Shown: positions 34,869 to 64,000 of the stretch, one piece after another
Layout of the letters: each line of letters opens with the position of its first letter
Position numbering within the stretch: the first letter of the stretch is position 1
From: Mycoplana rhizolycopersici
Lineage (GTDB): Bacteria > Pseudomonadota > Alphaproteobacteria > Rhizobiales > Rhizobiaceae
DNA: 64,000 nucleotides
Reading direction: 5' to 3'
NCBI RefSeq assembly: GCF_013378445.1
Contig: NZ_JABXYK010000001.1
Span: 434,001 to 498,000 of the forward strand
Position numbers and translations under genes: made by a program
The notes under the pieces: generated by a model
Told to the model about the DNA's origin: nothing
Database searches by the model: none
The model's input: the letters and a program-made list of their open reading frames with translations, nothing else

Positions 34869-34884
34869 TGTTTCACGTGAATCA
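34869..34884. promoter_or_regulatory. parS-like site 1
   Basis: TGTTTCACGTGAATCA, differing at one position per 16 from the palindromic parS consensus TGTTTCACGTGAAACA. ParB binds this sequence. It is intergenic, upstream of htpX. Confidence 0.8.
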
Positions 34885-47586: not shown

Positions 47587-48222
47587 TCACTGACCGCTGC
47601 GCGAAAGCCCCGTTATCTCCAGCACGACAGAATCATGCTCAACGACGCTCTGGTGTTTTATCAGATCGAATGCCCACTCACCACGGGCTTTGTCCACTTC
47701 GATCTGGTAATCCCGCCCTTTGTGAAAGAAAGCACGGCAAGCCTTGTTGCGATTCATCCATGGCGACGCGTATTTCAGGAGAAGCGGGAGCTCGGCCAGC
47801 GCCCTGGCTGATATGGCATCGCAATCGGTGACGACGTCCGGCGATGCCTCAATGCGGATCGGATGGACGCTGGCTCGCGCACCGGTTTCCCCGATCGCCT
47901 GGCGCAAAAATGCAGCCTTCTTGTTGTTGCTCTCGATCAGGTGAACCCAACCACCACCGGCCTCATGCAGAAGAATGGCCGTAATGATGCCCGGAAAACC
48001 ACCGCCACTGCCCAGATCGACCCATGTCAACGGCTGGGGTGAAAGCGAAAAAATCTGGGCACTGTCCCGGATATGCCGGGCGCCAAAGTCCTGCAATGTC
48101 GATGGCGCCACGAGATTGATGGTTCGCGCCCACTTGTCGAAAAGCAGAATAAATGTTCGCAAGCGCTCTTCCGTTTCACGTGAAACATTCAAGTCGCCAA
48201 GCGAGATATCCTCAACTTTCAT
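47587..48222 (-). CDS. rsmG: 16S rRNA (guanine527-N7)-methyltransferase RsmG
   Basis: 211 residues. Methylates G527 of 16S rRNA using SAM; loss gives streptomycin resistance in several bacteria. SAM site [11 protein letters not shown], a downstream [16 protein letters not shown], and [16 protein letters not shown]. Start ATG 48222 overlaps the mnmG stop (48219-48221). A parS-like site (48172-48187) lies in the 5' part of the coding sequence. Confidence 0.94.
48172..48187. promoter_or_regulatory. parS-like site 3 (inside rsmG)
   Basis: CGTTTCACGTGAAACA, a near-perfect parS with the 14-base core GTTTCACGTGAAAC intact, 1.4 kb from parA. Confidence 0.85.
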
Positions 48223-50099
48223 CGGGCAATACCTTGGCCTTTGGCAAGTTCATGTGTCTCCGCTCGTCTTAGAGCGGCCAGCAGAAGCGAAATAGCAGCC
48301 GGCGTCATCCCGTCGATACGCGACGCTTGCGCAACATTCGCCGGACGATCACGATTGAGCTTCACACGCAATTCATTCGACAAGCCGGGCAGGTCATCGA
48401 AACTGAACTCGACCGGAATCATCCGCTGCTCTTCTCGTTGCACGTCAGCAATATCGCTGGCCTGGCGATTCATATAGACGGCATAGCCAGCCTCGATCTC
48501 CAAAGCTTCACGTGTGCGGTCTGGGATAGCAGCCAGCTCTGGCCAGATCGGCGCCAGCGTGGCGATGGAGTGCTCACTGTAGGACAACAAGTCGTAGGCG
48601 CTTCGACGCTGCCCATCTTGATTGAGACGGATACCATATTGCTGCGCCTGGCTTGGTGTAACTGACAGCGACTGCGCCAAGTCACGGAAGTGTCCCAGCT
48701 CTACCTGCCAGCCAGAAAACCGCGATCGCCGTTCATCCGTCACGATGCCAAGCTCGATCCCGATCGGCGTCAGTCGCAGGTCCGCGTTGTCCGCGCGCAA
48801 TGACAGTCGATACTCGGCGCGCGAGGTAAACATCCGGTAGGGCTCTGCCACGCCCCGCGACGTCAGATCATCGATCATCACGCCGATATAGCTGTTCGTA
48901 CGGCTGAAATGATAGGGAGCCTGACCGCCAACCTTGCGTGCGGCATTGACGCCGGCAACCAAACCCTGTGCTGCCGCTTCCTCGTAACCTGTAGTTCCGT
49001 TGATCTGGCCGGCCAGGAAGAGGCCGGGCATTTTTGTCACTTCCAGTCCGAGCGACAGTTCGCGCGGATCAACGTGATCATATTCGATTGCATAACCAGG
49101 CTGCAGGATCTCCACATTCTCCAGTCCGGGAATCGTGCGGATGAACGCGGCCTGCACCACAGCTGGCAGCGACGTGGAGATACCGTTCGGATACACGGTG
49201 TCGTCGTCCAAGCCTTCTGGCTCCAGAAAGATCTGATGCCCGTCTCGTTCTCCGAAACGGACAATCTTGTCCTCGATAGACGGGCAGTAACGCGGACCTA
49301 CCCCTTTGATCTGGCCGGAGTACATGGCGGACTGCCCAATATTCTCCTCGATGATCCGGTGCGTTTCCGCCGTGGTGCGCGTCACGCCACACTCGATCTG
49401 CGGATTTGTAATCCTATCCGTCATGAACGAGAACGGTACCGGGTCGTCATCAGCGGCCTGGCGCCCGACCCTGTCCCAAGCAATCGTCTTACCGGAGAGG
49501 CGTGCCGGCGTTCCCGTTTTTAACCGGCCGAGGCGCAAACCGAGCCGCGACAGCGTCTCGGAAAGCCCCAAGGATGGCTGCTCGCCGACTCGTCCGGCCG
49601 GTGTGGTTTCGCTTCCGAGATGAATAAGGCCACGCAGGAAAGTCCCCGTCGTCAGCACGACGGCCGCACAGGGGATGCGGCGGCCATCCTTGGTGATGAC
49701 CGCGGCGATCTGATTTCTTTCGATCTCGATGTCGTAGGCGTCACCCTCGATGACGTCGAGATTGGCGGTCGCTTCAATTTCTGCCTGCATCGCCGTGCGG
49801 TAGAGCCGACGATCGGCCTGCGTGCGCGGTCCGCGGACTGCTGGTCCTTTACGGCGGTTCAGCAGACGAAACTGGATTCCGGCGCGATCGGCCACGCGTC
49901 CCATCAATCCGTCCAGCGCATCCACTTCTCGCACGAGATGTCCCTTGCCAAGGCCACCGATGGCGGGATTGCAGGACATAACGCCGATCGTTTGCCGCGA
50001 ATGGGTTAGCAACGCCGTGCTGGCTCCGGCGCGCGATGCTGCGGCCGCCGCTTCGCAACCTGCATGCCCGCCGCCGATGACGATGACATCATATCTCAT
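48219..50099 (-). CDS. mnmG: tRNA uridine-5-carboxymethylaminomethyl modification enzyme MnmG
   Basis: 626 residues. FAD-binding GxGxxG ([14 protein letters not shown]), catalytic-site [12 protein letters not shown], and [16 protein letters not shown]. With MnmE it forms the cmnm5 group at wobble U34 of tRNA. Start ATG 50099 ([11 protein letters not shown]); the longer frame from 50141 runs through a parS-like site. Two parS-like sites separate it from mnmE. Confidence 0.96.
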
Positions 50100-50133
50100 G
50101 CTGCATGTCCGTTTATCTGGTGGGTCGATGAAT

Positions 50134-50149
50134 CGTTTCACGTGAAACG
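50134..50149. promoter_or_regulatory. parS-like site 4 (between mnmE and mnmG)
   Basis: CGTTTCACGTGAAACG, a perfect 16-base palindrome with the parS core, intergenic between mnmG and mnmE. Confidence 0.88.
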
Positions 50150-50180
50150 TTAAAACTCGACTCGCTTTCGTTGCATTACA

Positions 50181-50196
50181 TGTTTCACGTGAATCA
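50181..50196. promoter_or_regulatory. parS-like site 5 (overlaps mnmE stop)
   Basis: TGTTTCACGTGAATCA, the asymmetric variant in the same orientation as site 1. It starts 31 bases after site 4 ends and its last bases overlap the mnmE stop codon (50194-50196). Confidence 0.85.
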
Positions 50197-51507
50197 TTTG
50201 CCGATGCAGAATTCGGAAAAGATCACGTCGAGCAGGTTCTCGACGTCGACACGTCCCGTTATACGCCCGATCTCAGTCGCTGCCACCCGGAGCCATTCTG
50301 CCTGCAATTCCAGGTCGTCACTTATCTGTAGAGCGTTCTCAATTGCCCTGACCGCCTCATTAAGCGTCTCATTGTGCCGTTGCCGTGAGGGGATTGCAAA
50401 GGCTGACGCGTCCGTCAAATCCGGCAATCTCGACCTAACACATGCAAGTAGCAGGTCAATACCCGCACCGGTCAGCGTCGATATAGCAATCTCACCGTCC
50501 CTCGGCACACGCCCTATGCCGATATCCTGTTTGGTGAAGACGCGGATAGTCTGAGCACTGGTACCCTCCGCGGGTATCGTTCCTTCTTCGGGTCCGACGA
50601 GATGAAGCACCAGATCCGCTGTTTCGACTGCAGCTTTGGCGCGACGAATGCCCTCACGCTCGACAAGTTCGGTCGTCTCGCGAATACCGGCGGTGTCGAC
50701 CAGTCTAACTGCGAAGCCGTCGAGATCTAGATCGACCGAAACAATATCGCGGGTCGTCCCCGGAATATCCGTCACGATCGCCACGTCACGATTTGCGAGG
50801 TAGTTGAGCAGGCTCGACTTTCCGACATTCGGAGATCCGGTAATTACCACGGTCAAGCCGTCCCGAATAATTTCGGCCGTGCGGCTCCCGCGCAGGTGCT
50901 TGCGCATCACAGATGCAAGATCTTCCAGGTCCGCTCTAATGGTGTGACCGATCGCGCCCGGTATGTCGTCCTCGTCGGCGAAATCCAGTTCCGCTTCGAT
51001 CATCGCGCGCGCATGTGTCAGGCGTCTAGCCCATGCACCGTAGAGATTCGACAGTCCGCCAGAAGCATGTTCAATGGCAAGCCGGCGCTGCATTTCGGTC
51101 TGCGCGGCAACAATATCCGCCAGCCCCTCGATCTCGACCAGATCAAGCTTGCCGTTATGAAACGCACGTCGACTGAATTCGCCCGGATCAGCAGCGCGCA
51201 GGCCGGGTAGGTCGCCAAGTTCATCGAGAACCGCACGTACCGTGGCTCGCCCACCATGGACATGCAGTTCTGCAGAGTCTTCACCCGTAAATGACGCCGG
51301 CCCGGGAAAATAGATCACGAGACCTTGATCGAGCAGAAGACCGTTTCGGTTTCGAATCGATCTTAGGCTTGCCTTCCTTGCAGGAGGCAGAGCGCCGGCG
51401 ATCGTTTCAACGGCGCCTGCACATTGGGGTCCACTGATGCGCACGACAGCAACGCCGGACGGAAGCCCGCCGCTCGAAAGCGCGAAGATTGTGTCGTTGC
51501 TGACCAT
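50194..51507 (-). CDS. mnmE: tRNA modification GTPase MnmE
   Basis: 437 residues. N-terminal tetrahydrofolate-binding domain, helical domain, G domain with P-loop GSPNVGKS (224-231) and DIPGTTRD, and the C-terminal CIGK (434-437) with the conserved Cys. Acts with MnmG on U34. Start ATG 51507 ([16 protein letters not shown]). The 3' end overlaps parS-like site 5. Confidence 0.96.
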
Positions 51508-51639
51508 ATTTCACCAGAGGCATCCAGGCCGGGCAGTATCCACATCTGCCGCCATGGCCGACCGAGCGCGTCGATACAACATTGGCGCGGCCCAGTCCAG
51601 TTTTGCCTGCATTAGGATAGGAGACACCACGCGTCCTCA

Positions 51640-51679
51640 AATAGAAAACGGCGAAGCGCCCTTAGAGGTGCTTCGCCGT
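51640..51679 (-). terminator. Terminator after rho
   Basis: ACGGCGAAGC (51648-51657) pairs with GCTTCGCCGT (51670-51679); on the minus strand TTTTC follows. Lies just beyond the rho stop. Confidence 0.75.
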
Positions 51680-51708
51680 ATTCATGCGAATCCGGATAAG
51701 AATCCGGC

Positions 51709-52974
51709 TTATGTATTCATCGACTCGAAGAAGTCGCCGTTGTTCTTCGTCTGCTTCAGCTTGTCGATGAGGAATTCGATGGCATCCGTCGTTCCCATCG
51801 GCGCAAGAATCCGGCGCAGTACGAATATCTTCTGCAGATCCTGACGCGGTACGAGCAGGTCTTCCTTACGGGTGCCCGACTTCAGGATGTCCATTGCCGG
51901 GAAGATCCGCTTATCGGCAACCTTGCGGTCGAGGACGATTTCGGAGTTGCCAGTGCCCTTGAATTCTTCAAAGATCACTTCGTCCATGCGGCTGCCAGTG
52001 TCGATCAGCGCGGTGGCAATGATCGTCAGCGAGCCGCCTTCCTCGATATTGCGCGCCGCACCGAAGAACCGCTTCGGACGCTGCAGCGCGTTGGCGTCCA
52101 CGCCGCCGGTCAGAACCTTGCCCGATGACGGAACGACCGTATTGTAGGCCCGTCCGAGGCGGGTGATCGAGTCGAGCAGGATAACCACGTCACGGCCGTG
52201 CTCGACCAGACGCTTGGCCTTCTCGATGACCATCTCGGCCACCTGCACGTGGCGCGTGGCGGGCTCGTCAAACGTTGAGGACACCACTTCGCCCTTCACC
52301 GAGCGCTGCATGTCGGTCACTTCTTCCGGACGCTCATCGATCAGAAGGACGATCAGATAACATTCCGGGTGGTTGGCAGTGATCGAGTGGGCGATGTTCT
52401 GCAAAAGAACCGTCTTGCCTGTACGTGGCGGCGCGACGATCAGCCCGCGCTGACCCTTGCCGAGCGGGGCAACCAGGTCGATGACACGCGACGAAAGGTC
52501 CTTCGAAGTCGGAACTTCCAGCTCCATCTTGAAACGCTCATTCGGATAAAGCGGCGTCAGATTATCGAAGTGGACCTTGTGGCGGATCTTTTCCGGATCG
52601 TCGAAATTGATCGTGTTTACCTTCAGCAGCGCGAAGTAGCGCTCGCCCTCCTTCGGACCCCGGATCGGGCCTTCGACGGTGTCGCCAGTTTTCAGCGAAA
52701 ACCGTCGGATCTGCGAGGGGGAGATGTAGATATCATCCGGGCCGGGAAGATAGTTCGCATTGGCGGAGCGAAGGAAGCCGAAGCCATCCTGAAGCACTTC
52801 GACCACGCCCTCGCCGATGATTTCCGTATCTTGCGCGGCCAGCATCTTCAGGATTGCGAACATCAGCTCCTGCTTGCGCATCGTGCTGGCGTTCTCGACC
52901 TCGAGTGATTCGGCAAAGGCCAGAAGATCGGTCGGCGTCTTATTTTTCAGTTCTTGAAGCTTCATTTCAGCCAT
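51709..52974 (-). CDS. rho: Transcription termination factor Rho
   Basis: 421 residues, the usual alphaproteobacterial length. N-terminal helical cap and cold-shock-like RNA-binding domain ([17 protein letters not shown]), then a RecA-like ATPase with P-loop [12 protein letters not shown] (181-192) and the R/Q-loops. Start ATG 52974 ([18 protein letters not shown]); a frame 30 codons longer is upstream leader. Followed by a hairpin terminator. Confidence 0.97.
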
Positions 52975-53162
52975 GAAGGGGGGACCATGCGTAATTTCAG
53001 GATGGGGATTGGCGTGCGAGTCAAGACTGAGCTGCAGGGGGAGCAGTTCACGAAGCAGGTACACATGCCACGAGAGATGAGATGTTGCGAAAATAGCGCT
53101 TCATTGCCACGCCCGCAAGGGGCTCCGAAAATTTCCCCGTTGGGACCCGCATAGCGCTCGCC

Positions 53163-53702
53163 TCAGAACGGCTTGACGACGACGAAAATGACGATCGCCA
53201 CCATCAGGAGCGCCGGCATCTCGTTGAGAAAACGCCAGCCCCGCGGGCTGATACGGTTCTCGTCGCGGCTGAAGGCCCTGACAGAACGGCCAAGGAAGAC
53301 ATGAAATCCGGTCAGAACCAGGACGAAGGCCAACTTTGCATGCAGCCAGCCTCCGTGGAAGCCGTAGACCGACCAGGCGAGATAGAGGCCGAGAACCCAG
53401 CTCAGCATCATGGCCGGGTTCATGATGACGAAATAGAGGCGGTTCTCCATCGTCTTGAAGGTTTCCGCAGCATCCGATCCAGCCGCAGCGTCGGTGTGAT
53501 AGATGAACAGGCGCGGCAGGTAGAGCAGGCCGGCCATCCAGGAGATGACGGCGACAACGTGAAACGCCTTGATCCAGAGATAGAGGTCGTCCGGCGGATG
53601 GGCGATCAGCATCGCTGCAATCGCAGCGAAGACAACGATGACGGATACGGCGCGGATCGCCGCGCGCCGACCGGCCCGTCGGCCCGTCTGCTGCTCGCTC
53701 AC
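53163..53702 (-). CDS. hemJ: Protoporphyrinogen oxidase HemJ
   Basis: 179 residues. Four or more membrane segments and the conserved [23 protein letters not shown], with a His in segment one and the [10 protein letters not shown] motif near the C-terminus. HemJ replaces HemG/HemY in most alphaproteobacteria. GTG start at 53702 overlaps the hemE stop (GTGA), so both heme genes are coupled. Confidence 0.9.
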
Positions 53703-54733
53703 GAGCGGTAGCTCCGAACACGCTGCACGAGGTCGGCAACGTTGGCCGGGTCGGCCTGAGGGGTGATCCCGTGGCCGAGATTGAAAATCAGCGGGCCGTT
53801 TCCAAGTGCAGACAGGATCGCATCGATGCCCTCGTGCAAAGCGGCGCCACCGGCAACGACGCGCTGCGGGTCGAGATTGCCCTGTATCGGTCCGTCCTTC
53901 TGCAATTCCACCGCCATCGAAAGTGGGATGGTCCAGTCCAGGCCGATCGCATCGGCGCCGGTCTGCTGGCGGTATTCGCGCAGGAACAAACCCGCTCCCT
54001 TGGCGAAGGCAATGATCTTTGCCTGCGGACGCGCGGCCCGGACTATATCGACGATGCGCCGTACCGGCTTGACGGCGTAGGCAGCAAATTCATGCTCGCC
54101 AAGCACGCCTGCCCAGGAATCGAAGATCTGCACGGCGTCCGCCCCGGCATCGATCTGTGCGATCAGGTATTCGGCGGATTTCTCGGCCAGGATATCGAGC
54201 AGCAGTGCGAACGTTTTTGGCTCCTTATAGGCGAAGAGCCGCGTCGGCGCCTGATCCGGCGTACCCTGTCCGGCAATCATATAGGTCGCAACGGTCCAGG
54301 GCGCGCCACAGAAGCCCAGCAGGGCCGTCTCCTGCGGCAATTCCTTGCGAAGGCGTCCGACCGTCTCGATCACCGGTGCCAGGTGCTCCATCACCCCCAG
54401 CTTTGAAAGAGGCGGTATCTCGTCCGGTGTCAGCGGCTGCAATCGCGGTCCATGCCCCTCTTCAAACCGAACCTGTCGTTTCAAGGCATCCGGAATGACG
54501 AGGATGTCGGAGAAGAGAATGGCAGCATCGAAGCCGTAACGCCGGATCGGCTGCAAAGTCACTTCGACAGCGTGATCGGGCGAATAACAGAGATCAAGGA
54601 AGCTGCCGGCTTTGGAACGCGTCTCGCGATATTCCGGCAGATAACGCCCGGCTTGGCGCATCAGCCACACTGGTGGGGGAGACACGGTCTTCCCGTTCAG
54701 AACCTCGACAATCTTCCGCGTTCCGCTCGCCAC
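53699..54733 (-). CDS. hemE: Uroporphyrinogen decarboxylase
   Basis: 344 residues. Converts uroporphyrinogen III to coproporphyrinogen III. Active-site [28 protein letters not shown] and the Asp-bearing [12 protein letters not shown] are present. The start was set at GTG 54733 ([20 protein letters not shown]) with AGAGGAG eight bases upstream; a TTG at 54754 would add seven residues. It borders the probable origin and transcribes away from it. Confidence 0.95.
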
Positions 54734-55135
54734 CGCTGCGGCTCCTCTAATCAAAGAAATCTATATTGAAGAGGTTTCTATTTCTTAGAGTCGGTGACTA
54801 TCAAGGATTAAATTCCGTCCACATCTTTCCCGGACGAAGTGGGAACGATCCTGCAGACCGCAAAAAAAACGCAGCTGAACGAAGGGTTGCGGGATATCTG
54901 AAATAATCCTTTTATTTCAAAATCTTCGTTTAATCCTCGTTTTTGCTATCCTGTGGACAATGTGAGGATTTGCGTGACAGAATGTCGCCGCGGCGGAGTT
55001 GTCCACATCGCCACTGGAAATCGATCCCGCAAAAACCGAATTGTGGAAAAATCGAGACTTTTCCACGGGGGTGGGTCGCGAGGCGGATTCTTCGGTCATC
55101 CTATCCCACCCTATCAACAGCCTGCCGAGGATCAT
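54734..55135. other. oriC: Probable chromosomal replication origin (oriC)
   Basis: About 400 bases between the divergent hemE and ppsR, the conserved origin position in related rhizobia. DnaA-box-like nonamers: TGTGGACAA (54952-54960), TTGTCCACA (54999-55007), TGTGGAAAA (55042-55050), TTTTCCACG (55059-55067), and a weaker CCGTCCACA (54815-54823). An AT-rich unwinding-like tract lies at about 54888-54950, and CcrM sites GAGTC (54788-54792) and GATTC (55086-55090) flank it. Genes on the left run leftwards and genes on the right mostly rightwards. Confidence 0.8.
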
Positions 55136-55957
55136 GTGGAGAACCCCAAAAACTACTTTCACCTGCATCTGATCTCCGATTCGACGGGTGAGACGCTGAT
55201 TGCGGCGGGGAGGGCCGCGGCTGCCCAATTCCAGGCGTCGCAGGCGCTCGAACACGTCTACCCCCTCATTCGTAATCGAAAGCAGCTGACACCGGTCCTC
55301 GACGCGATCGACAGTGCGCCGGGCATCGTGCTCTACACGATCGTCGACCGGGAGCTTTCCGCCATCATAGATCAGCGCTGCCGCGAGATGGGGCTGCCCT
55401 GTGTGTCCGTGCTTGAGCCCATCCTTGACGTCTTTCAGTCCTATCTCGGTGCGACCTCTCGTCGTCGGGTGGGGGCGCAACACGTGATGGACGCGGAATA
55501 TTTCGCCCGTATCGAGGCGCTCAACTTCACCATGGATCACGACGACGGTCAGCTGCCGGCCGACCTGGAGGAGGCGGATGTCATTCTGGTCGGCATCAGC
55601 AGGACGTCGAAGACGCCGACCAGCATTTATCTTGCCAACCGCGGCATCAAGACGGCGAACATTCCGATCGTCCTCGACGTGCCCCTGCCGGAACGTCTCT
55701 CCCAGGTGGCTCGCCCGCTGGTGGTGGGGCTTATTGCGACGACCGATCGCATCGCCCAGATACGTCACAACCGCGTCCTCGGTGCTGCGAAGGATTTCAA
55801 GGGCGAGGACTACACTGACAGGGCGCAGATCGCCGAGGAGCTGAAATACGCGCGCATGCTCTGCGCGCGCAACAATTGGCCCGTAATCGACGTCACGCGT
55901 CGTTCCATCGAGGAGACCGCTGCAGCAATTGTTGCCCTGAGACCGAAGCTTCGGTAA
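55136..55957 (+). CDS. Pyruvate, phosphate dikinase regulatory protein (PPSR/DUF299)
   Basis: 273 residues, bifunctional kinase/pyrophosphorylase family. N-terminal [20 protein letters not shown] and the ATP/ADP-site-like [15 protein letters not shown] (153-167) are diagnostic. It reversibly phosphorylates PPDK or PEP synthase. GTG start (55136-55138) with GAGG five bases upstream; a longer frame reaching 54953 would cover the DnaA boxes. First gene right of the origin. Confidence 0.9.
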
Positions 55958-55988
55958 GCCCTCAGACCCAAAGACCAAGAGCTTCGCC

Positions 55989-56600
55989 ATGACAGTGCCG
56001 CAGAAACACCGCCTCATCCTCGCCTCGCAAAGTCCGTTCAGGAAGATGCTGATGGAAAACGCCGGACTGACGTTCGACGCCTTTTCGCCAGAAATCGACG
56101 AACGTGCAATCGAAAGCGAACTGGAACGGCAGGCACCGTCGCCCGCAGATGTCGCCCTGCATCTGGCAGAGGCGAAGGCAACGGCGGTATCCGTGCGCCA
56201 TCCGGGAAGACTGGTGATAGGTTCCGACCAGACGCTGTCGCTGGCCGATCGGGTGTTTCACAAGCCGGAAGGCATTTTGGGGGCGAGAGAGCACCTTCTT
56301 GCCCTGTCAGGCAGGACCCACGCGCTGAACAGCGGCGTGGTGATCGCTGTGGGCGGAGAGGTGGCTTGGCGTCACGTCTCCACCGCCAGTCTGACAATGC
56401 GTCCCTTGAGTGCGGACTTCATCGATCGCCACCTGGCACGGGTGGGGGAACGCGTGTTGGGCAGCGTCGGGGCATACCAGTTGGAAGGCGAGGGCATACA
56501 GCTGTTCGAGAGGATCGAGGGTGACTATTTCACCATCATCGGCCTTCCGATGTTGCCGCTCCTGGCGCAACTGAGATCGATGGGGGCGATCGATGCGTGA
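55989..56600 (+). CDS. Maf-family nucleotide pyrophosphatase
   Basis: 203 residues. [21 protein letters not shown] contains the Maf phosphate motif, and [34 protein letters not shown]-type C-terminal pieces follow. Members hydrolyse non-canonical or pyrimidine nucleoside triphosphates; septum-inhibition effects are known for some. It overlaps the aroE start by 8 bases. Confidence 0.9.
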
Positions 56601-57453
56601 TTCACGTGAAACATTTGTTAACTATGCCTTCGTGGTCGGGCATCCGATCAAGCATTCCCGCTCGCCTCTGATCCACGGCCATTGGTTGGAGAAGTTTGGG
56701 ATTGCAGGAAGCTACAGGCCGATCGACGTCACCCCCGCCGCATTTCCCGATTTCGTCGCAAGCCTCAGAGGGGAGGACCGCGCCTTTGTCGGCGGCAACG
56801 TCACGATCCCGCACAAGGAGGCAGCATTTCAGCTCGTCGATCGACCTGATGCGCTCAGCGAAGAGCTTGGCGCCAGTAACACGATCTGGATCGAAGAGGG
56901 CAGGCTGCATGCGACCAACACCGATGGTCACGGCTTCGTTTCCAATCTGGACGAGCAGGCCTCGGGCTGGGACCGCATCGATCGAGCGGTCGTTTTCGGC
57001 GCCGGCGGCGCAAGCCGGGCAATTCTGCAGGCCTTGCGTAACCGTGGCATCAGTGAGATCCACGTCCTGAACCGCACGGTTGGGAGAGCGCAGGAACTCG
57101 CAGACCGCTTTGGCTCAAGGATATATGCACATCCGATGGAAGCGCTTCGCGAAGTGATGAGCGGAGCCGGCCTCTTCGTGAACACGACCTCGCTAGGTAT
57201 GGACGGCGACGCGGCGCCGGACATCGACTTCAGCGGGCTGGTGCCCGGCGCGATCGTCACCGACATCGTCTACGTGCCATTGAAGACGCCGTTCCTCGTC
57301 CAGGCGGAACGCCAGGGCTTAGCCACCGTCGATGGGCTGGGAATGCTGCTGCATCAGGCAACGCCCGGCTTCGAAAAGTGGTTCGGCGTCCGGCCGACAG
57401 TGGATGCCGCGTTGCGCCAGGTCATCGTCGACGACATGGAGCGGCACGGATGA
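56593..57453 (+). CDS. aroE: Shikimate dehydrogenase
   Basis: 286 residues. NADPH-dependent reduction of 3-dehydroshikimate. Substrate-site [10 protein letters not shown] (22-31) and NVTIPHKE (69-76, catalytic Lys75), NADP loop [13 protein letters not shown]. The start ATG lies within the maf gene; the first codons contain parS-like site 6. The stop overlaps the coaE start (ATGA). Confidence 0.95.
56598..56613. promoter_or_regulatory. parS-like site 6 (overlaps maf stop and aroE start)
   Basis: TGATTCACGTGAAACA, the same asymmetric variant as site 2, beginning at the maf TGA and covering codons 2-7 of aroE, about 1.6 kb from the DnaA-box cluster. Confidence 0.82.
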
Positions 57454-58049
57454 TCATCGTCGGGCTGACAGGATCGATCGGGACCGGCAAGTCGACGACG
57501 GCCGGCATGTTCCGTGATCTGGGCGTGCCCGTGCATGATGCGGATGCGGCCGTACACGAGCTCTATGCGAACGAGGCGGTCGGGCCGGTCGGCGAAGCAT
57601 TTCCGGCAGCGATCGTATCCGGCGCCGTCGATCGCAAGGCGCTGGCAGCCGAACTGGCCAAAAGCCCGGATGGTTTCAACCGTCTGGAACGGATCATTCA
57701 CCCGCTCGTCCGGCAGAAGGAGGCAGCCTTTCTGGAGGCGCAACGCACGGCCGGAACTCGTCTTGTCGTGCTTGACATTCCGCTGCTGTTCGAGACCGGA
57801 GGCGAGCGGCGGGTGGATAAGGTCGTCGTCGTCAGTTGTTCGCCCGACGTGCAGAGGCAGCGTGTGATGGCCCGTCCGGGCATGACCGAGGAAAAATTCG
57901 CCATGCTTTTGTCACGGCAGCTGCCGGATGTCGAAAAGCGGGCGCGTGCGGATTTTGTGGTCAACACGGACAACGGGCTTGATGCGGCGCGCGAACAGGT
58001 GAAACAAATCCTCGGCACACTCATTCAGGAAAGCGACGCCGATGCGTGA
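57450..58049 (+). CDS. coaE: Dephospho-CoA kinase
   Basis: 199 residues. Last step of CoA synthesis. P-loop GSIGTGKST (8-16), the [12 protein letters not shown] substrate region and the [15 protein letters not shown] lid. ATG 57450 overlaps the aroE stop, and the 3' end overlaps dnaQ by 8 bases. Confidence 0.95.
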
Positions 58050-58764
58050 GATCATCTTCGATACGGAAACCACCGGCCTCGACAGTCGCTCCGACCGCGT
58101 CATCGAAATCGGCGGGGTCGAGCTCGACAATCATTTTCCGACCGGGCGCACTTTCCATGTCTATATCAATCCGGGCGACAAGAAGGTGCATCCGGACGCG
58201 TTGGCCGTTCATGGGATCACTGACGAGTTCCTGAAGGACAAGCCTCCCTTCGCAGAAATCGCCGAGGACCTGCAGTCCTTCTTTGCAGATGCCCGTTGGG
58301 TGGCCCACAATGCCACCTTCGACATGGGCTTCATCAACGCGGAGTTCGAGCGTCTCGGAATTCCACCGGTGCCAGCTGACCGCGTGACGGACACGCTGGC
58401 GCTGGCGCGTCGCAAGCATCCGATGGGGCCGAACTCGCTCGATGCGCTCTGCCGGCGCTATGGCATCGACAATTCGCATCGGACAAAACACGGCGCACTC
58501 CTCGACTCCGAGCTTCTGGCCGAGGTCTACATCGAAATGATCGGCGGCAGGCAGGCCGCCCTCGGGCTTGGCGTCGCCGAACAGCGTGAGCGGCTGGACC
58601 AGGCGGATGGCGAGGAGATTGTCCTGCCGATCGAACAGCGCCCAAGACCCTTGCCGCAGCGAATCAGCGAAATCGAGATTTCCGCGCATGCGGCAATGGT
58701 CGAGAAGATGGGCGACAAGGCGATCTGGCTGAAATACCGGCCTGAACCCGGAGACCAGGACTGA
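58042..58764 (+). CDS. dnaQ: DNA polymerase III subunit epsilon (3'-5' exonuclease)
   Basis: 240 residues. Proofreading exonuclease of the replicase. DEDDh motifs complete: Asp7 and Glu9 (FDTETTGLD), Asp94 (HNATFDMGF), His150 and Asp155 (HGALLDSEL). A C-terminal tail binds the polymerase subunit. Last gene of the maf-aroE-coaE-dnaQ series, followed by a bidirectional terminator shared with secB. Confidence 0.96.
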   Translation: MREIIFDTETTGLDSRSDRVIEIGGVELDNHFPTGRTFHVYINPGDKKVHPDALAVHGITDEFLKDKPPFAEIAEDLQSFFADARWVAHNATFDMGFINAEFERLGIPPVPADRVTDTLALARRKHPMGPNSLDALCRRYGIDNSHRTKHGALLDSELLAEVYIEMIGGRQAALGLGVAEQRERLDQADGEEIVLPIEQRPRPLPQRISEIEISAHAAMVEKMGDKAIWLKYRPEPGDQD

Positions 58765-58776
58765 AAGCCCAAACGA

Positions 58777-58803
58777 AAAACGCCCGGCAGAACCGGGCGT
58801 TTT
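58777..58803. terminator. Bidirectional terminator between dnaQ and secB
   Basis: AAAACGCCCGG (58777-58787) pairs with CCGGGCGTTTT (58793-58803), with A/T flanks on both sides. Confidence 0.85.
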
Positions 58804-58824
58804 CAGTTTCCATCCTGTGACGGA

Positions 58825-59310
58825 TCAGTTGGTGTTGCCGGCGACCTTGGCCTTCAGCTGCTCTTCGGCCATGCGCTGCTGGAACATCTGCGCAAAATCG
58901 ATGGGGTCGATCATCAGCGGCGGGAAGCCGCCGTTGCGGGTCGCATCGGCAATGATCTGGCGGGCGAACGGGAACAGCAGGCGCGGGCATTCGATGAAGA
59001 GAACCGGCAGCATGTGCTCCTGTGGGAAACCGGAGATGCGGAAGACGCCGCCATAAGCCAGTTCCGCGTTGAAAAGAACCTTGCCGTCGTCCTTGGCCTC
59101 GGCGTTCAGCGTCAGAACGACGTCGAATTCCGTTTCCGTCAGCGGATTGGCATTGACGTTCACGTTGATGTTGATCGACGGAGCCTTCTCGCGCGCCTGC
59201 AGCGAGCGCGGAGCGCCGGGGTTTTCAAAGGAAAGGTCCTTCACATACTGCGCCAGGATGTTGAGGGACGGGCTGGCCGCGTTGTTGGCCGCTTCGTTTT
59301 CGGTTGCCAT
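58825..59310 (-). CDS. secB: Protein-export chaperone SecB
   Basis: 161 residues. Cytosolic tetramer that keeps preproteins unfolded for Sec[21 protein letters not shown] and the [21 protein letters not shown] block are family-diagnostic. Start ATG 59310 ([15 protein letters not shown]). It converges with dnaQ. Confidence 0.95.
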
Positions 59311-59400
59311 TGTTCTTTCCTCGAGACGTAAAAATCGTGGCAGCCATCTAGCATTTCGACCGGGGGCTTACAACCCTGCCGGCCCTGGCGGGCATCGGCC

Positions 59401-59859
59401 TCAGCGCGGCTCGTCGCGATTATAATCGTCCGTGTCGAGATCGATCGTGCGCAGCTGTTGCGGACGCGACCCGCGAGGATCGGTCGAGGCCTCGAAATTG
59501 ACGACGACGGCGCGCGCGGCAAGGCGGCGGGCAATGAAGGTGCGGACGAAGGGCACAAGCACCAGGATTGCGATGATATCCGTGAAGAACCCGGGCACGA
59601 TCAGAAGCAGTCCGGCAAGCAGGACCATGGCGGTGTCGAAGAACTTCTCGGCTGGAAGGTCGCGCGGCAAGTTCTGTTGGCGTAGTTTGGACAAGGCCTG
59701 AAAGCCTTGCCTTCTCAGGATCGCCATTCCAATTACGGCTGAGGCGATGACGAGAAGAAGTGTTGCCAAAAGCCCGATCTGCCGCCCGACGATCACGAAG
59801 CCGGCGATTTCGATCAGCGGAAGAAGCAGGATGAGGATGGCGATGAAGATTCGTGTCAT
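59401..59859 (-). CDS. FxsA family membrane protein
   Basis: 152 residues. Two or three N-terminal membrane segments with the family Ile/Leu-rich pattern (IAILILLLPLIEIAGFVIVG; GLLLIVPGFFTDIIAILVLV) and a polar C-terminus ending DTDDYNRDEPR. FxsA affects T7 exclusion in E. coli; cellular role unclear. It lies 90 bases after secB in the same orientation. Confidence 0.85.
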   Translation of the reverse strand: MTRIFIAILILLLPLIEIAGFVIVGRQIGLLATLLLVIASAVIGMAILRRQGFQALSKLRQQNLPRDLPAEKFFDTAMVLLAGLLLIVPGFFTDIIAILVLVPFVRTFIARRLAARAVVVNFEASTDPRGSRPQQLRTIDLDTDDYNRDEPR

Positions 59860-60052
59860 TGTCTGTTGCCTGACTGCATGGAAGGCTTACTTGTAGACCA
59901 TGCCGGGTTCGCTTGTCTGCGCGCCATCGATGGTGGTCAAGGTTAAGTGATGGCCATTCGACCATCGGGTGCTCACGCGCATTTGAAGAATGTGCGTGAG
60001 CAGATTATATGGGGTGCAGATCAGAAAAGATGAACGGTGGTTCCGGACCGAT

Positions 60053-60757
60053 ATGGGCTCATTCGACTTTGTAACGATTTTCTTCCTTGTGGCGGCCGTT
60101 GTGATTTTCCTGCAGCTGCGCAATGTTCTCGGCCGCCGAACGGGGAATGAAAAGCCGCCCTTCGATCCCTATTCCCGTCGCGAGAACTCTGAGGGCGCGC
60201 CGGGGCCGGATCGCGGCAAGGTCGTGACCCTGCCGCGGCGCGATGGCGCGGACGGCGAAGAGGGCGCCTATGCCGTTGTCGATGCCTTTACGCCGACCGG
60301 AACACCGCTGAACGATTCCCTGCGCCGCGTGGTCGACGCCGACCCGTCCTTCGACCCGAAGGAATTCGTCAACGGTGCCAAGATGGCCTACGAAATGATT
60401 GTCGTGGCTTTTGCCGATGGCGATCGCAAGACCCTCAAGAACCTGCTTTCCCGCGAGGTCTATGAAGGGTTTGACGGAGCCATCAGCGAGCGCGAGGGCA
60501 AGGGCGAAGTGGTCAAGTCCAGCTTCGTCGGCATCGAGAAGGCCGATATCGTCAGTGCCGAGGTGAAGGACAACGAGATCAACATCACGCTGCGCATCAT
60601 CAGCCAGTTGATTTCGGCGACCTACGACAAGGCAGGCGGCCTGATCGACGGCGATGCCGAAATGGTCGCGGAGGTCAACGACCTGTGGACCTTCGCCCGC
60701 GATGTCCGTTCGCGCGATCCCAACTGGAAGCTGATCGCCACCGAATCCGAAGGCTGA
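60053..60757 (+). CDS. timA: Tim44-like domain protein (TimA-type)
   Basis: 234 residues. One N-terminal membrane segment (about 6-22, FVTIFFLVAAVVIFLQL) and a C-terminal Tim44/TimA domain from about 90 (FDPKEFVNGAKMAYEMIVVAFADGD). A disordered linker separates them. The mitochondrial relative anchors a protein-import motor; the bacterial job is inferred as a membrane-bound adaptor. ATG 60053 starts MGSFDFVTIFF. Divergent from fxsA, and followed by mltA 11 bases downstream. Confidence 0.85.
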   Translation: MGSFDFVTIFFLVAAVVIFLQLRNVLGRRTGNEKPPFDPYSRRENSEGAPGPDRGKVVTLPRRDGADGEEGAYAVVDAFTPTGTPLNDSLRRVVDADPSFDPKEFVNGAKMAYEMIVVAFADGDRKTLKNLLSREVYEGFDGAISEREGKGEVVKSSFVGIEKADIVSAEVKDNEINITLRIISQLISATYDKAGGLIDGDAEMVAEVNDLWTFARDVRSRDPNWKLIATESEG

Positions 60758-60768
60758 TTGGCAAAACG

Positions 60769-61884
60769 ATGGACTTCCGTCTGAAACCGGTCGCTTTTTC
60801 GGATCTGCCCGGATGGACGGAAGATGATCCCTCCGCGCTGTTCGGAGCGATGGCGCGCTGTCGCGATCACATCGTCGCCACCAAACCCTATCGCACAGGG
60901 CTGTTGGGAGTTGCTGCCGCGGATCTGCTTCCCGCGTTGAATGCGGCTGCAGGGACAACGCCTTCCGGGCCTTCGCAGGCCCGGGCCTTCTTCGAGGACT
61001 GGTTCCAGCCGTTCCTAATCGAGAACAGGCAGGGCGAAAGGGGCTTCGTCACGGCCTACTACGAGCCGGAAGTGGAGGTGCGAGGCAAGCCTGACGCCGA
61101 CTTCCGCTATCCCTTCTACCGTCGCCCCGACGACATGGTCGACATGGACGACGCAAACCGGCCAGCAGGTTTCGACCCCTATTTCGCGTTCGGCCGCATG
61201 CGGGAGGGCAAGATCGAGGAATACCCCGATCGCCAGGCCATCGATCAGGGCCTTCTCGACGGGCGAAACCTCGAGATCGCCTATGCGCGCTCGAAGGTCG
61301 ATGTCTTCTTCATCCACGTGCAGGGGGCTGCCCGGCTCCTTTACCCGGACGGCTCGGTGCGGCGCATAACCTATGCGGCCAAGACCGGCCATCGCTTTTC
61401 GCCGATCGGCAAGCTTCTGATCGAACGCGGTGAAATCGATCCAGCGACGGTGTCTATGGGGTCGATCCGGAGCTGGCTGGCGCGCAACCCGGATCGGATC
61501 GACGAGATCCTCTGGCACAACCGCTCCTACATCTTCTTCCGCGATGCCCAGGTGGACGATGCAGAGCTGGGCCCGGTCGCTGCGGCGAAGGTTCCGATCG
61601 TCGCCGGCCGTTCGCTCGCCGTCGATCGCCTGATCCACACCTTCGGCACGCCTTTCTTCATCCGCAGCGACAGCCTGACACATATGGACGGCGGCATGCC
61701 GTTTGCCAGAACCATGCTGGCGCTTGATACCGGCTCGGCGATCGTGGGCGCAGCCCGCGGCGACATCTTCACCGGGTCCGGTGACGCCGCCGGTGAGTTG
61801 GCCGGCAACGTCCGCGACGCCGCCGACTTCCACATTTTTGTTCCCAGGTCGATCGCCGAGAGATTTCGCCATGGCGAGGGATAA
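60769..61884 (+). CDS. mltA: MltA-type murein transglycosylase
   Basis: 371 residues. An MltA domain with a double-psi barrel and 3D-type C-terminus (LDTGSAIVGAARGDIFTG), and the YYEPEVEVRGKPDADF stretch. It cleaves glycan strands to anhydromuropeptides in homologues. No signal peptide or lipobox is visible, unlike E. coli MltA. Start ATG 60769 (MDFRLKPVAFSDL); the upstream frame offers no export signal. Overlaps the Smr gene by 14 bases. Confidence 0.88.
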   Translation: MDFRLKPVAFSDLPGWTEDDPSALFGAMARCRDHIVATKPYRTGLLGVAAADLLPALNAAAGTTPSGPSQARAFFEDWFQPFLIENRQGERGFVTAYYEPEVEVRGKPDADFRYPFYRRPDDMVDMDDANRPAGFDPYFAFGRMREGKIEEYPDRQAIDQGLLDGRNLEIAYARSKVDVFFIHVQGAARLLYPDGSVRRITYAAKTGHRFSPIGKLLIERGEIDPATVSMGSIRSWLARNPDRIDEILWHNRSYIFFRDAQVDDAELGPVAAAKVPIVAGRSLAVDRLIHTFGTPFFIRSDSLTHMDGGMPFARTMLALDTGSAIVGAARGDIFTGSGDAAGELAGNVRDAADFHIFVPRSIAERFRHGEG

Positions 61885-62440
61885 GTCGCTCAGCGCCGAG
61901 GACCGCATCCTCTGGGGCAAGGTCGCACGAAGCGCCAAGGCACTCCCGGGCCGGATGGAGGAACTGAAGACGCTCGAGGCCCTGTTCGCTCCGGAACCTG
62001 AAGCCGCTTTGCCGGCTGAGGATGTCGGGACACTGAAGAAGGATGCTTCCGAGAACGGTGGAATCCGGATAACGAATGCCGGCAAGGGTGAGCGCCAGCA
62101 TCATCCGCTGGAACGTCCGGTCCGGCGCAAGCTGGCAAAAGGCCGGCTGGCCCTGGAAGCGCGTATCGACCTGCACGGCATGATCCAGAGCGAAGCGCAT
62201 GGTCTGCTGCTGAGCTTCATGATCCAGGCGCACGCGCGCGGGATGCGCCATGTGTTGGTGATCACCGGCAAGGGCGCGTCGATTGGAAGTGACGGGGCCT
62301 TGAAGCGCGCCGTGCCGCTCTGGTTCTCGCTGCCGGAATTCAGGCCGCTGATTTCATCCTATGAGCCGGCGGCGCGCAATCATGGCGGCGAGGGTGCATT
62401 ATATGTGCGGCTGGCGCGGGCGAAGGGGGCGCACGAATGA
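61871..62440 (+). CDS. Smr/MutS2 C-terminal domain protein
   Basis: 189 residues. A charged N-terminal segment followed by a small Smr domain (about 105-185), with RIDLHGMIQSEAHGLLLSF and LVITGKGASIG. Smr domains act as RNA/DNA nucleases or in ribosome rescue in some bacteria; no substrate is known here. Starts within mltA and its stop overlaps the next gene (ATGA). Confidence 0.85.
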   Translation: MARDKSLSAEDRILWGKVARSAKALPGRMEELKTLEALFAPEPEAALPAEDVGTLKKDASENGGIRITNAGKGERQHHPLERPVRRKLAKGRLALEARIDLHGMIQSEAHGLLLSFMIQAHARGMRHVLVITGKGASIGSDGALKRAVPLWFSLPEFRPLISSYEPAARNHGGEGALYVRLARAKGAHE

Positions 62441-62817
62441 CCACCCCGTTTGGCGTTGCGGTGCGTCACCTGCGCTCCAGGAAAGGCGTCACGCAGAAGG
62501 ATATGGCCGTGGCGCTCGGCGTCTCTCCGGCCTACCTGTCGGCGCTCGAACACGGGCGGCGCGGGTTGCCGAGTTTCGAGTTCCTGCAGCGGGTGGCCGG
62601 TTACTTCAACATCATCTGGGATGAGGCGGAGGAGCTTTTCCGCATCGCCCGGATTTCCGACCCGAGGATCACCGTGGATACGGCCGGCCTGCCACCCGAA
62701 TACACGGCCTTTGCCAACCGCCTCGCCGTCGAAATCGGCAATCTGCCGCCCGAGACGATCAGGCGGCTGGCCGGGATACTGGAAAAGGCCTGCAGTTCGC
62801 GCCGGAAATCGCCGTGA
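62437..62817 (+). CDS. XRE-type helix-turn-helix transcriptional regulator
   Basis: 126 residues. An N-terminal HTH (AVRHLRSRKGVTQKDMAVAL and VSPAYLSALEHGRRGLP, about residues 8-45) and a C-terminal helical part (LPPETIRRLAGILEKACSSRR). Translationally coupled to the Smr gene. It sits 132 bases before gyrB; a link to gyrB control is only a hypothesis. Confidence 0.85.
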   Translation: MTTPFGVAVRHLRSRKGVTQKDMAVALGVSPAYLSALEHGRRGLPSFEFLQRVAGYFNIIWDEAEELFRIARISDPRITVDTAGLPPEYTAFANRLAVEIGNLPPETIRRLAGILEKACSSRRKSP

Positions 62818-62853
62818 TCCCCTGATTTCTGCCGCTATTGGCGGTCACACGGT

Positions 62854-62882
62854 TTGGAGAAACGAGGCGAAATCCCTATATT
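62854..62882 (+). promoter_or_regulatory. Sigma70-type promoter of gyrB
   Basis: TTGGAG (62854-62859), 17 bases, TATATT (62877-62882); predicted start near 62888, about 60 bases before the gyrB ATG. Confidence 0.5.
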
Positions 62883-62949
62883 CGTCAAGCTGGAAAACCG
62901 GTGATTCGCCGTTTCCCACTTCTTCAGGAACGCTGGAAAGACACCCCGT

Positions 62950-64000
62950 ATGACTGACATCACCGAGACCGACAACGGCCCGGCCGAGTATGGCGCAGAT
63001 TCCATCAAGGTGCTCAAGGGCCTTGATGCCGTGCGCAAGCGTCCCGGCATGTATATCGGCGACACGGACGACGGGTCCGGCCTGCACCACATGGTCTATG
63101 AAGTCGTGGACAATGCGATCGATGAAGCGCTGGCCGGTCATGCGGATCTCGTGACGGTGACGCTGAACGCGGACGGTTCCGTCACCGTGACCGACAATGG
63201 CCGCGGCATCCCGACCGACATTCACAAGGAAGAAGGCGTCTCGGCTGCCGAGGTCATCATGACCCAGTTGCATGCCGGCGGAAAGTTCGACCAGAACTCC
63301 TACAAGGTCTCCGGCGGCCTGCATGGCGTTGGCGTTTCGGTGGTGAACGCTCTGTCGGTGTCGCTGAAGCTGAAGATCCGCCGCGGCGGGAACATCCACG
63401 AGATGAGCTTCACGCACGGCGTTGCCGACGGACCGCTCGTCGTGACCGGCAAATGCGGCGACGAGACCGGCACTGAAGTCACCTTCCTTCCGAGCACCGA
63501 GACCTTCTCCAACGTCGATTTCAACTACCAGACGCTGGAGCATCGCCTTCGCGAACTGGCATTCCTGAATTCCGGAGTCCGCATCCTCTTGACCGATCGG
63601 CGTCACTCGGACGTCAAGCAGGACGAATTGATGTATGACGGGGGCCTGGAAGCCTTCGTCAGCTATCTCGACCGCGCCAAGAAGCCACTGGTTGCAAAGC
63701 CCGTCTCCATTCGCGGCGAACGCGACGGAATTACGGTCGAAGTCGCCATGTGGTGGAACGACAGCTACCACGAGAACGTGCTGTGCTTCACCAACAACAT
63801 CCCCCAGCGCGACGGCGGCACGCATCTTGCCGGCTTCCGCGGGGCGCTGACGCGTCAGGTTGTCTCCTATGCCGAGAGCTCGGGCATCCTGAAGAAGGAA
63901 AAGGTCTCACTGACGGGTGACGATTGCCGCGAAGGCCTCACCGCCGTACTCTCCGTCAAGGTGCCGGATCCGAAGTTTTCCTCGCAGACGAAGGACAAGC
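62950..64000 (+). CDS. gyrB: DNA gyrase subunit B, 3' end cut by window
   Basis: 350 codons of the N-terminal part. The GHKL ATPase is clear: [16 protein letters not shown] (Bergerat N-box), [18 protein letters not shown], and the [18 protein letters not shown] lid; a transducer domain follows before the window ends. GyrB introduces negative supercoils with GyrA and is the target of coumarin antibiotics. Start ATG 62950 ([20 protein letters not shown]). Confidence 0.97.

Follow-up and report, generated by a model that had tools for sequence, protein, structure and literature searches.

The chromosomal oriC of S. meliloti has reportedly been mapped by experiment to a position next to hemE. In S. 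meliloti strain 4H41 (locus L048) the gap beside hemE has the same gene context and the same length as the gap analysed here, five corresponding DnaA boxes and a conserved block with GAGTC; 215 of 406 aligned positions are identical, and the strengths of the boxes differ, for example TTGTTCACA versus TTTTCCACA. Cori, the origin of Caulobacter crescentus, likewise adjoins hemE and is described as containing DnaA boxes and an AT-rich region (PMC8959179), the Caulobacter forms being given as a G-box, TGATCCACA, and a W-box, TCCCCA, in PMC4285127.

Here we analyse the gap between hemE and the PPSR gene in a stretch of 64,000 nucleotides from Mycoplana rhizolycopersici, which we call the window. 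A first, sequence-only reading had proposed this gap as a probable oriC. That interpretation held up, as the box cluster, the parS-like sites, the skew switch, the conservation and the homology to S. meliloti 4H41 all concur, and we conclude that the gap is almost certainly the oriC of a Rhizobium-like main chromosome, an assignment that is well supported. An origin at this place was to be expected and confirms the known address for the group. The gain from the comparison is a 40-bp element beside hemE that is conserved family-wide, with a CcrM target fixed in what is likely the opening site.

Genomic context and comparative samples

The origin is placed, as in the hemE-type alphaproteobacterial oriC, in the non-coding gap between the divergent hemE and PPSR genes (54755-55135; 381 bp if hemE starts at 54754). 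The left neighbour, hemE (53699-54754, minus strand; PF01208), and the right neighbour, the PPSR gene (pyruvate, phosphate dikinase regulator type; 55136-55957, plus strand; PF03618), are transcribed outward, as had been noted from the sequence. Pfam also recovers the whole gene order claimed for the locus, with Maf, AroE, CoaE and a DnaQ-type exonuclease following PPSR. The over-long PPSR frame from 54953, against which the sequence-only reading had warned, is mechanical: similarity to relatives starts only at the GTG codon at 55136, from which the start of the gene was taken. The hemE start is uncertain (54718-54754), in that the listed codon is a TTG at 54754 and the local alignment of most relatives begins several residues later (residues 1-15), so that the gap may be slightly longer.

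Relatives were collected in three samples. The named loci came from a search with the PPSR protein and are the best 80 of 164 places encoding a relative. The family sample started from 121 genomes, of which 28 without a PPSR match were left out; 90 of the 93 PPSR-positive genomes were read, as 30 loci and 60 stretches (G382, G369 and G385 were left out), and hemE was not found next to PPSR in two of them (L147, L185), giving 88 genomes, mostly one per genus. For the class sample we took 143 genomes, of which 44 had no match and 10 further matching genomes were left out; 29 loci, 60 fetched stretches and L088-L092 made up 94, of which 9 had no detected adjacent hemE, giving 85 gaps (L087 was likewise without a detected adjacent hemE). 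From the family alignment, 5 of 138 gaps were removed as duplicates. The family and named samples overlap, so that their 162 gaps represent 157 distinct ones.

Across the family the length of the gap is nearly fixed. Its median in the 88 genomes is 378 bp, with half of the values between 372 and 382 and the 5 to 95% range at 360-422, and in 50 named Rhizobiaceae loci (among the best 80 of 164) it measures 377-386 bp. The nearest named relative among the same best 80 of 164 is Rhizobium subbaraonis, with a PPSR identity of 98% and agreement at 327 of 412 aligned origin positions.

One locus stood out by its label. L059, on a MAG contig labelled Arenimonas sp., which we take to be a gammaproteobacterial name, has a rhizobial-type hemE-gap-PPSR arrangement with 74% identity in both proteins and a gap of 380 bp, and is probably mis-binned or mislabelled.

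Two features of Cori distinguish it from the gap described here. Whereas Cori has five CtrA sites, a search for TTAA-N7-TTAA found none in 54500-55300, and none with one mismatch in the gap. In addition, the CcnA-like RNA of Cori has no counterpart in the gap according to Rfam, which returned no RNA, CcnA-like or other, at gathering score in 48000-64000.

DnaA boxes in the gap

All four DnaA-box-like nonamers that had been noted in 54952-55067 were found, three of them within one mismatch of TTATCCACA. Using a 51-row alignment and a genome box scan, we identified TTGTCCACA at 54952-54960 (minus strand) and again at 54999-55007 (plus strand), and TTTTCCACA at 55042-55050 (minus strand), whose inverted partner is the fourth nonamer, TTTTCCACG, at 55059-55067 (plus strand). 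A further conserved box, CTATCAACA, absent from the first list, lies near the PPSR start (55111-55119, plus strand); both the family consensus and S. meliloti 4H41 have TTATCAACA there. The weaker fifth box that had been placed at 54815 corresponds to CCGTCCACA (54815-54823, plus strand), which has three mismatches to TTATCCACA and a right half that is fairly conserved among relatives.

The chance level was set by 300 mononucleotide shuffles of the gap. Three boxes with at most one mismatch to TTATCCACA compare with a shuffle mean of 0.10 and a maximum of 2, and five boxes with at most two mismatches with a mean of 1.06 and a maximum of 5; as the shuffles reach five at the looser threshold, chance could account for the weaker boxes taken by themselves. 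Throughout the 5.6-Mb, 78-contig draft genome TTDTCCACA is no commoner than its control, the same pattern read backwards (44 versus 48 matches), and the only matches less than 1 kb apart are the three of the gap. When the 64-kb window was divided into 335 tiles, three or more boxes occurred only in the two tiles over the gap, which locates a cluster of DnaA boxes there.

A terminator-like hit at 55043-55066 (0.9 expected) was rejected, being the inverted pair of DnaA boxes, which the terminator scan takes for a hairpin. The pair is largely kept in relatives.

GC skew and parS sites

The GC skew of the 564-kb contig C1 switches around the gap, with 11 of 14 pieces negative to the left and 3 of 3 positive to the right (window pieces included); the assembly of the strain being a draft, this describes one contig and not the whole chromosome. 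Within the window the cumulative minima flank the gap, at 52338 for GC skew and at 56182 for keto skew. In two near-complete relatives the skew is negative in 7 of 9 and 8 of 8 samples left of the orthologous gap and positive in 9 of 11 and 10 of 12 samples right of it; these samples are 12 kb wide, far apart and in some cases of the wrong sign, the nearest lying 189 kb to the left and 31 kb to the right in one relative and 42 kb and 13 kb in the other, so that, with circularity assumed, the switch is placed only that finely.

The same neighbourhood is marked by parS-like sites. Seven sites with at most two mismatches occur in the genome, all of them on the contig of the gap and six within 20 kb of it. 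The nearest is at 56598-56613, and others are at 34869, 38963, 48172, 50134 and 50181.

A conserved block beside hemE

The most conserved element of the gap is a block at 54773-54812 (plus strand), which the first reading had not singled out. In 51 aligned rows its mean identity to the window is 0.96, compared with 0.54 for the whole gap, 0.68-0.84 for the strong boxes with their flanks, 0.71 for the right-hand box region and 0.36 for 54824-54948. The block is recognisable family-wide, with a consensus, drawn by eye, of approximately TTCTnATTCTTAGASTCTGTGnnTAnCGGGGATTAAA. It combines triplets resembling a DnaA-trio, a GANTC and two degenerate DnaA-box-like sites, and we propose it as a candidate unwinding element.

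The weakest 40-bp duplex of the region (54748-54787; -42.3 kcal/mol, against a window mean of -61.1 kcal/mol and an sd of 3.8) overlaps this block and is a candidate melting site. The AT-rich tract that had been noted before the first box is confirmed as the other of the two weakest 40-mers (54895-54934; -42.6 kcal/mol); it lies within the poorly conserved 54824-54948 and is a rival melting candidate. As the two are nearly equal in the window, the placement of the opening rests on the relatives. In 132 of 133 family rows, with three gaps longer than 700 bp excluded, we compared three regions with centres at aligned 54755-54810, 54870-54945 and 54946-55130, with 54811-54869 outside the comparison, and the hemE side held the weakest 40-mer in 113 of the 132. 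Of 106 gaps from other Alphaproteobacteria, 101 likewise have the start of their weakest 40-mer in the third next to hemE. These predicted duplex energies suggest that unwinding is likelier at the block beside hemE than at the AT-rich tract preceding the first strong box.

A CcrM site at the triplet/box junction

The two methylation sites that had been reported at the edges of the gap are both present. GAGTC, a CcrM (GANTC) site, lies at the junction of the triplets and the box-like sites (54788-54792), and GATTC at 55086-55090 is little conserved and falls outside the recurrent GANTC columns. Two GANTC in 381 bp are no clear excess on their own, with 98 in the 64 kb, and enrichment is not claimed from the window alone.

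The comparison with relatives is more telling for the junction site, as 79 of 83 genus-sample rows (48 GAGTC and 31 GACTC) and all 50 named Rhizobiaceae rows (among the best 80 of 164) share this methylation target in the likely unwinding region, with N varying and the rest fixed. As it is conserved while N varies, the junction GANTC looks selected. GANTC followed by TGT or GGT was found in 83 of the 88 gaps of the family sample, in all 50 named Rhizobiaceae gaps, in 22 of the 24 gaps of named relatives outside the Rhizobiaceae (Methylobacterium-like and others; both named sets among the best 80 of 164) and in 4 of 85 class gaps, whereas the control motif with CANTG was found in 5, 1, 0 and 2, respectively. 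With Rhizobiaceae and Methylobacterium-like gaps combined, the junction motif is present in 155 of 162 gaps, or 150 of 157 distinct ones. Densities in the family sample follow the same line, with 30.7 GANTC per kb over the 90 bases adjoining hemE, 5.1 over the remainder of the gap and 1.2 at the hemE start, compared with 1.1-10.1 per kb for seven control palindromes. In the named set the values are 14.9 per kb beside hemE versus 7.9 (among the best 80 of 164), and 56 of 83 genus-sample rows have two to four GANTC in the likely unwinding region.

The junction GANTC was rejected as a class- or order-wide feature: the class sample has it in 3 of its 54 elements and 4 of its 85 gaps, and in one of these four gaps (L301) it falls in the box element. 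The two genomes of that sample from the same order, but another family (L188, L189), are both without it. The genome analysed here encodes a CcrM-like protein of 375 aa, and CcrM was found in all 80 genomes searched (80 of the 93 with PPSR). Loss of CcrM was rejected as the explanation for missing junction sites, as the genomes of the four family origins without one (L181, L183, L184 and L187; G359, G322, G334 and G329) have CcrM.

A second palindrome is raised at the same place. CTNAG (CTTAG in the window, 54784-54788) reaches 8.8 per kb beside hemE in the family sample, because CTTAG belongs to the conserved block; PMC3973325 mentions that CTNAG is biased genome-wide.

Resemblance to the DnaA-trio unwinding module

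In Rhodospirillales and other orders, the place of the block is often taken by (TAG/TTG/TGG)n followed by CTGTGGATAA and CGGGGATTA. Many alphaproteobacterial origins thus show the one-strand order described for the basal unwinding system in PMC8287927 and PMC6669920, namely triplets, a short spacer and tandem TGTGGATAA-like boxes. The pattern CTGTGGATAACGGGGATTAA was devised after part of the class sample had been viewed, so that only the count in the 53 held-out gaps serves as a test; there it occurred in 29 (at least 13 of 20, first 160 bases), whereas the reversed pattern occurred in 5 and shuffles predict 1.9. The 33 bases preceding the pattern hold 3.15 triplets on average, versus 2.27 when shuffled and 0.62 on the other strand, and runs of three or more were found in 13 of the 53 gaps, which makes the triplet signal moderate.

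In the window, TCT ATT TCT TAG (54777-54788, plus strand) stands in the place of the trio-like triplets in a degenerate form. It is followed by two degenerate DnaA-box-like sites on the minus strand, both of low match: GGTGACTAT at 54793-54801, which reads TGTGnnTAn in relatives and TGTGGATAA in other orders, and CAAGGATTA at 54802-54810, which reads CGGGGATTA in relatives. As a criterion for trios, PMC8287927 asks for three or more NAN triplets no further than 16 bp from a DnaA box. With TAG as the only one of the four window triplets to have a middle A, hence fewer than three NAN triplets in register, and with degenerate box-like sites, the block is not classed as a basal unwinding system, from which it also differs by the GANTC at the junction. 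Visual inspection shows three such NAN triplets in a row in a small number of relatives (TAT TAT TAG). By analogy, the block of the window may work like a DnaA-trio unwinding module, and the element offers a precise target for the question of where DnaA opens alphaproteobacterial origins.

Proposed mechanism of initiation and alternatives

We consider it very probable that the gap is a DnaA-dependent origin of the main chromosome in which DnaA bound to the array opens 54748-54812 and parS aids segregation. DnaA would bind the array at 54952-55067 together with the box at 55111, and would extend toward the hemE side via the weak sites in 54793-54823. The duplex would then open at the AT-rich conserved block, predicted at 54748-54812 in site as in direction, the helicase would enter at the opened block, and the forks would leave past hemE and past PPSR. 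ParB acts at parS in chromosome segregation, and on the sites observed around the gap it would help to carry the new origins apart.

The best-surviving alternative accepts the gap as an origin, takes the block at 54773-54812 mainly for a hemE promoter under GcrA/CcrM control via the GANTC, and lets DnaA open 54895-54934. At some 20-60 bp upstream of hemE, the block indeed has the position expected of a promoter, and TTGATA could act as a minus-strand -35 element, but this hexamer is clade-specific, its columns being variable across the wider family. No sigma-70 promoter was found on the hemE side; the sole match, at 54954 (0.4 expected), is on the plus strand. S. meliloti GcrA is described as binding GANTC better when methylated (PMC3667746), and changes in CcrM are reported to have left A. 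tumefaciens ori1 visibly unaltered (PMC11514494), both of which suit a promoter; other orders, however, carry triplet-plus-box sequences at the same place. The tract at 54895-54934 is also a very weak duplex, but it is poorly conserved (0.36) and the hemE side is the weakest of the three compared regions in 113 of 132 rows. On balance we find this account rather unlikely, although promoter and unwinding roles of the block could coexist.

A second alternative assigns the right half of the block (TATCAAGGATTAA) to the binding of a bending protein, for instance IHF, and places it outside the melting element. This sequence departs from an IHF consensus at one position and hardly varies in the clade of the window, but in the wider family these columns have TAnCGGGGATT and no longer match. 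IHF is reported to bind the Caulobacter origin (PMC4285127); a bending site would, however, leave the conserved left half with the GANTC unexplained. We regard this reading as very unlikely. That the gap is a mere divergent intergenic region with DnaA-regulated promoters, the origin being elsewhere, is scarcely credible: DnaA boxes can regulate promoters, and in this draft genome the skew is known along one contig, but the skew switches at the gap here and in two relatives, parS sites cluster around it, the genome has no second cluster of strong boxes and the locus is the one at which the S. meliloti origin is said to map.

Methylation and origin opening

If the block beside hemE is where array-bound DnaA opens the duplex, gating of this step by methylation at the junction GANTC is possible, judging from the conservation of the site. 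The arrangement would resemble that of E. coli oriC (Dam GATC, SeqA) in that the likely unwinding region repeatedly contains a methylation target; it differs in its methylase, CcrM, and in the single GANTC that the block has in the window, and published tests of CcrM saw no strong influence on DnaA-dependent origins. When CcrM was depleted or in excess in A. tumefaciens, ori2 alone changed and ori1 showed no measurable effect (PMC11514494), and the DNA-content profile of Caulobacter was normal when CcrM was missing (PMC3973325); such experiments speak against a strong methylation effect. A modelling paper assumes that Cori must be fully methylated before refiring (PMC2217572). The four family origins without the junction site despite the presence of CcrM also count against a role of methylation.

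It is tempting to speculate that the opening element of Rhizobiaceae and Methylobacterium-like origins was rebuilt around a CcrM site set between the DnaA-trio-like triplets and the neighbouring DnaA sites, whose full, hemi- or absent methylation would tune DnaA-driven opening, but we hold this to be a doubtful proposition with little probability in its favour. If true, methylation-tuned opening would be an alphaproteobacterial counterpart of Dam/SeqA that acts on melting itself. The element also raises the question of why origins carry CcrM sites when CcrM loss barely affects DnaA-dependent initiation. Among the matches listed for GANTC or CcrM together with origins, the titles and abstract openings, drawn mostly from outside the subscription literature, name no CcrM site conserved within the unwinding element of origins in rhizobia.

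Over the window as a whole (1-64000) GANTC is depleted, with 98 sites compared with 363 expected from dinucleotide shuffles, and its rarity in Alphaproteobacteria has been published (PMC3973325). In Methylobacterium-type origins (L064-L086) GANTC extends across the entire gap. The Methylobacterium-like set is rich in it throughout, at 13.9 and 17.3 per kb, and the 24 named non-Rhizobiaceae gaps average 7.58 sites each (all among the best 80 of 164).
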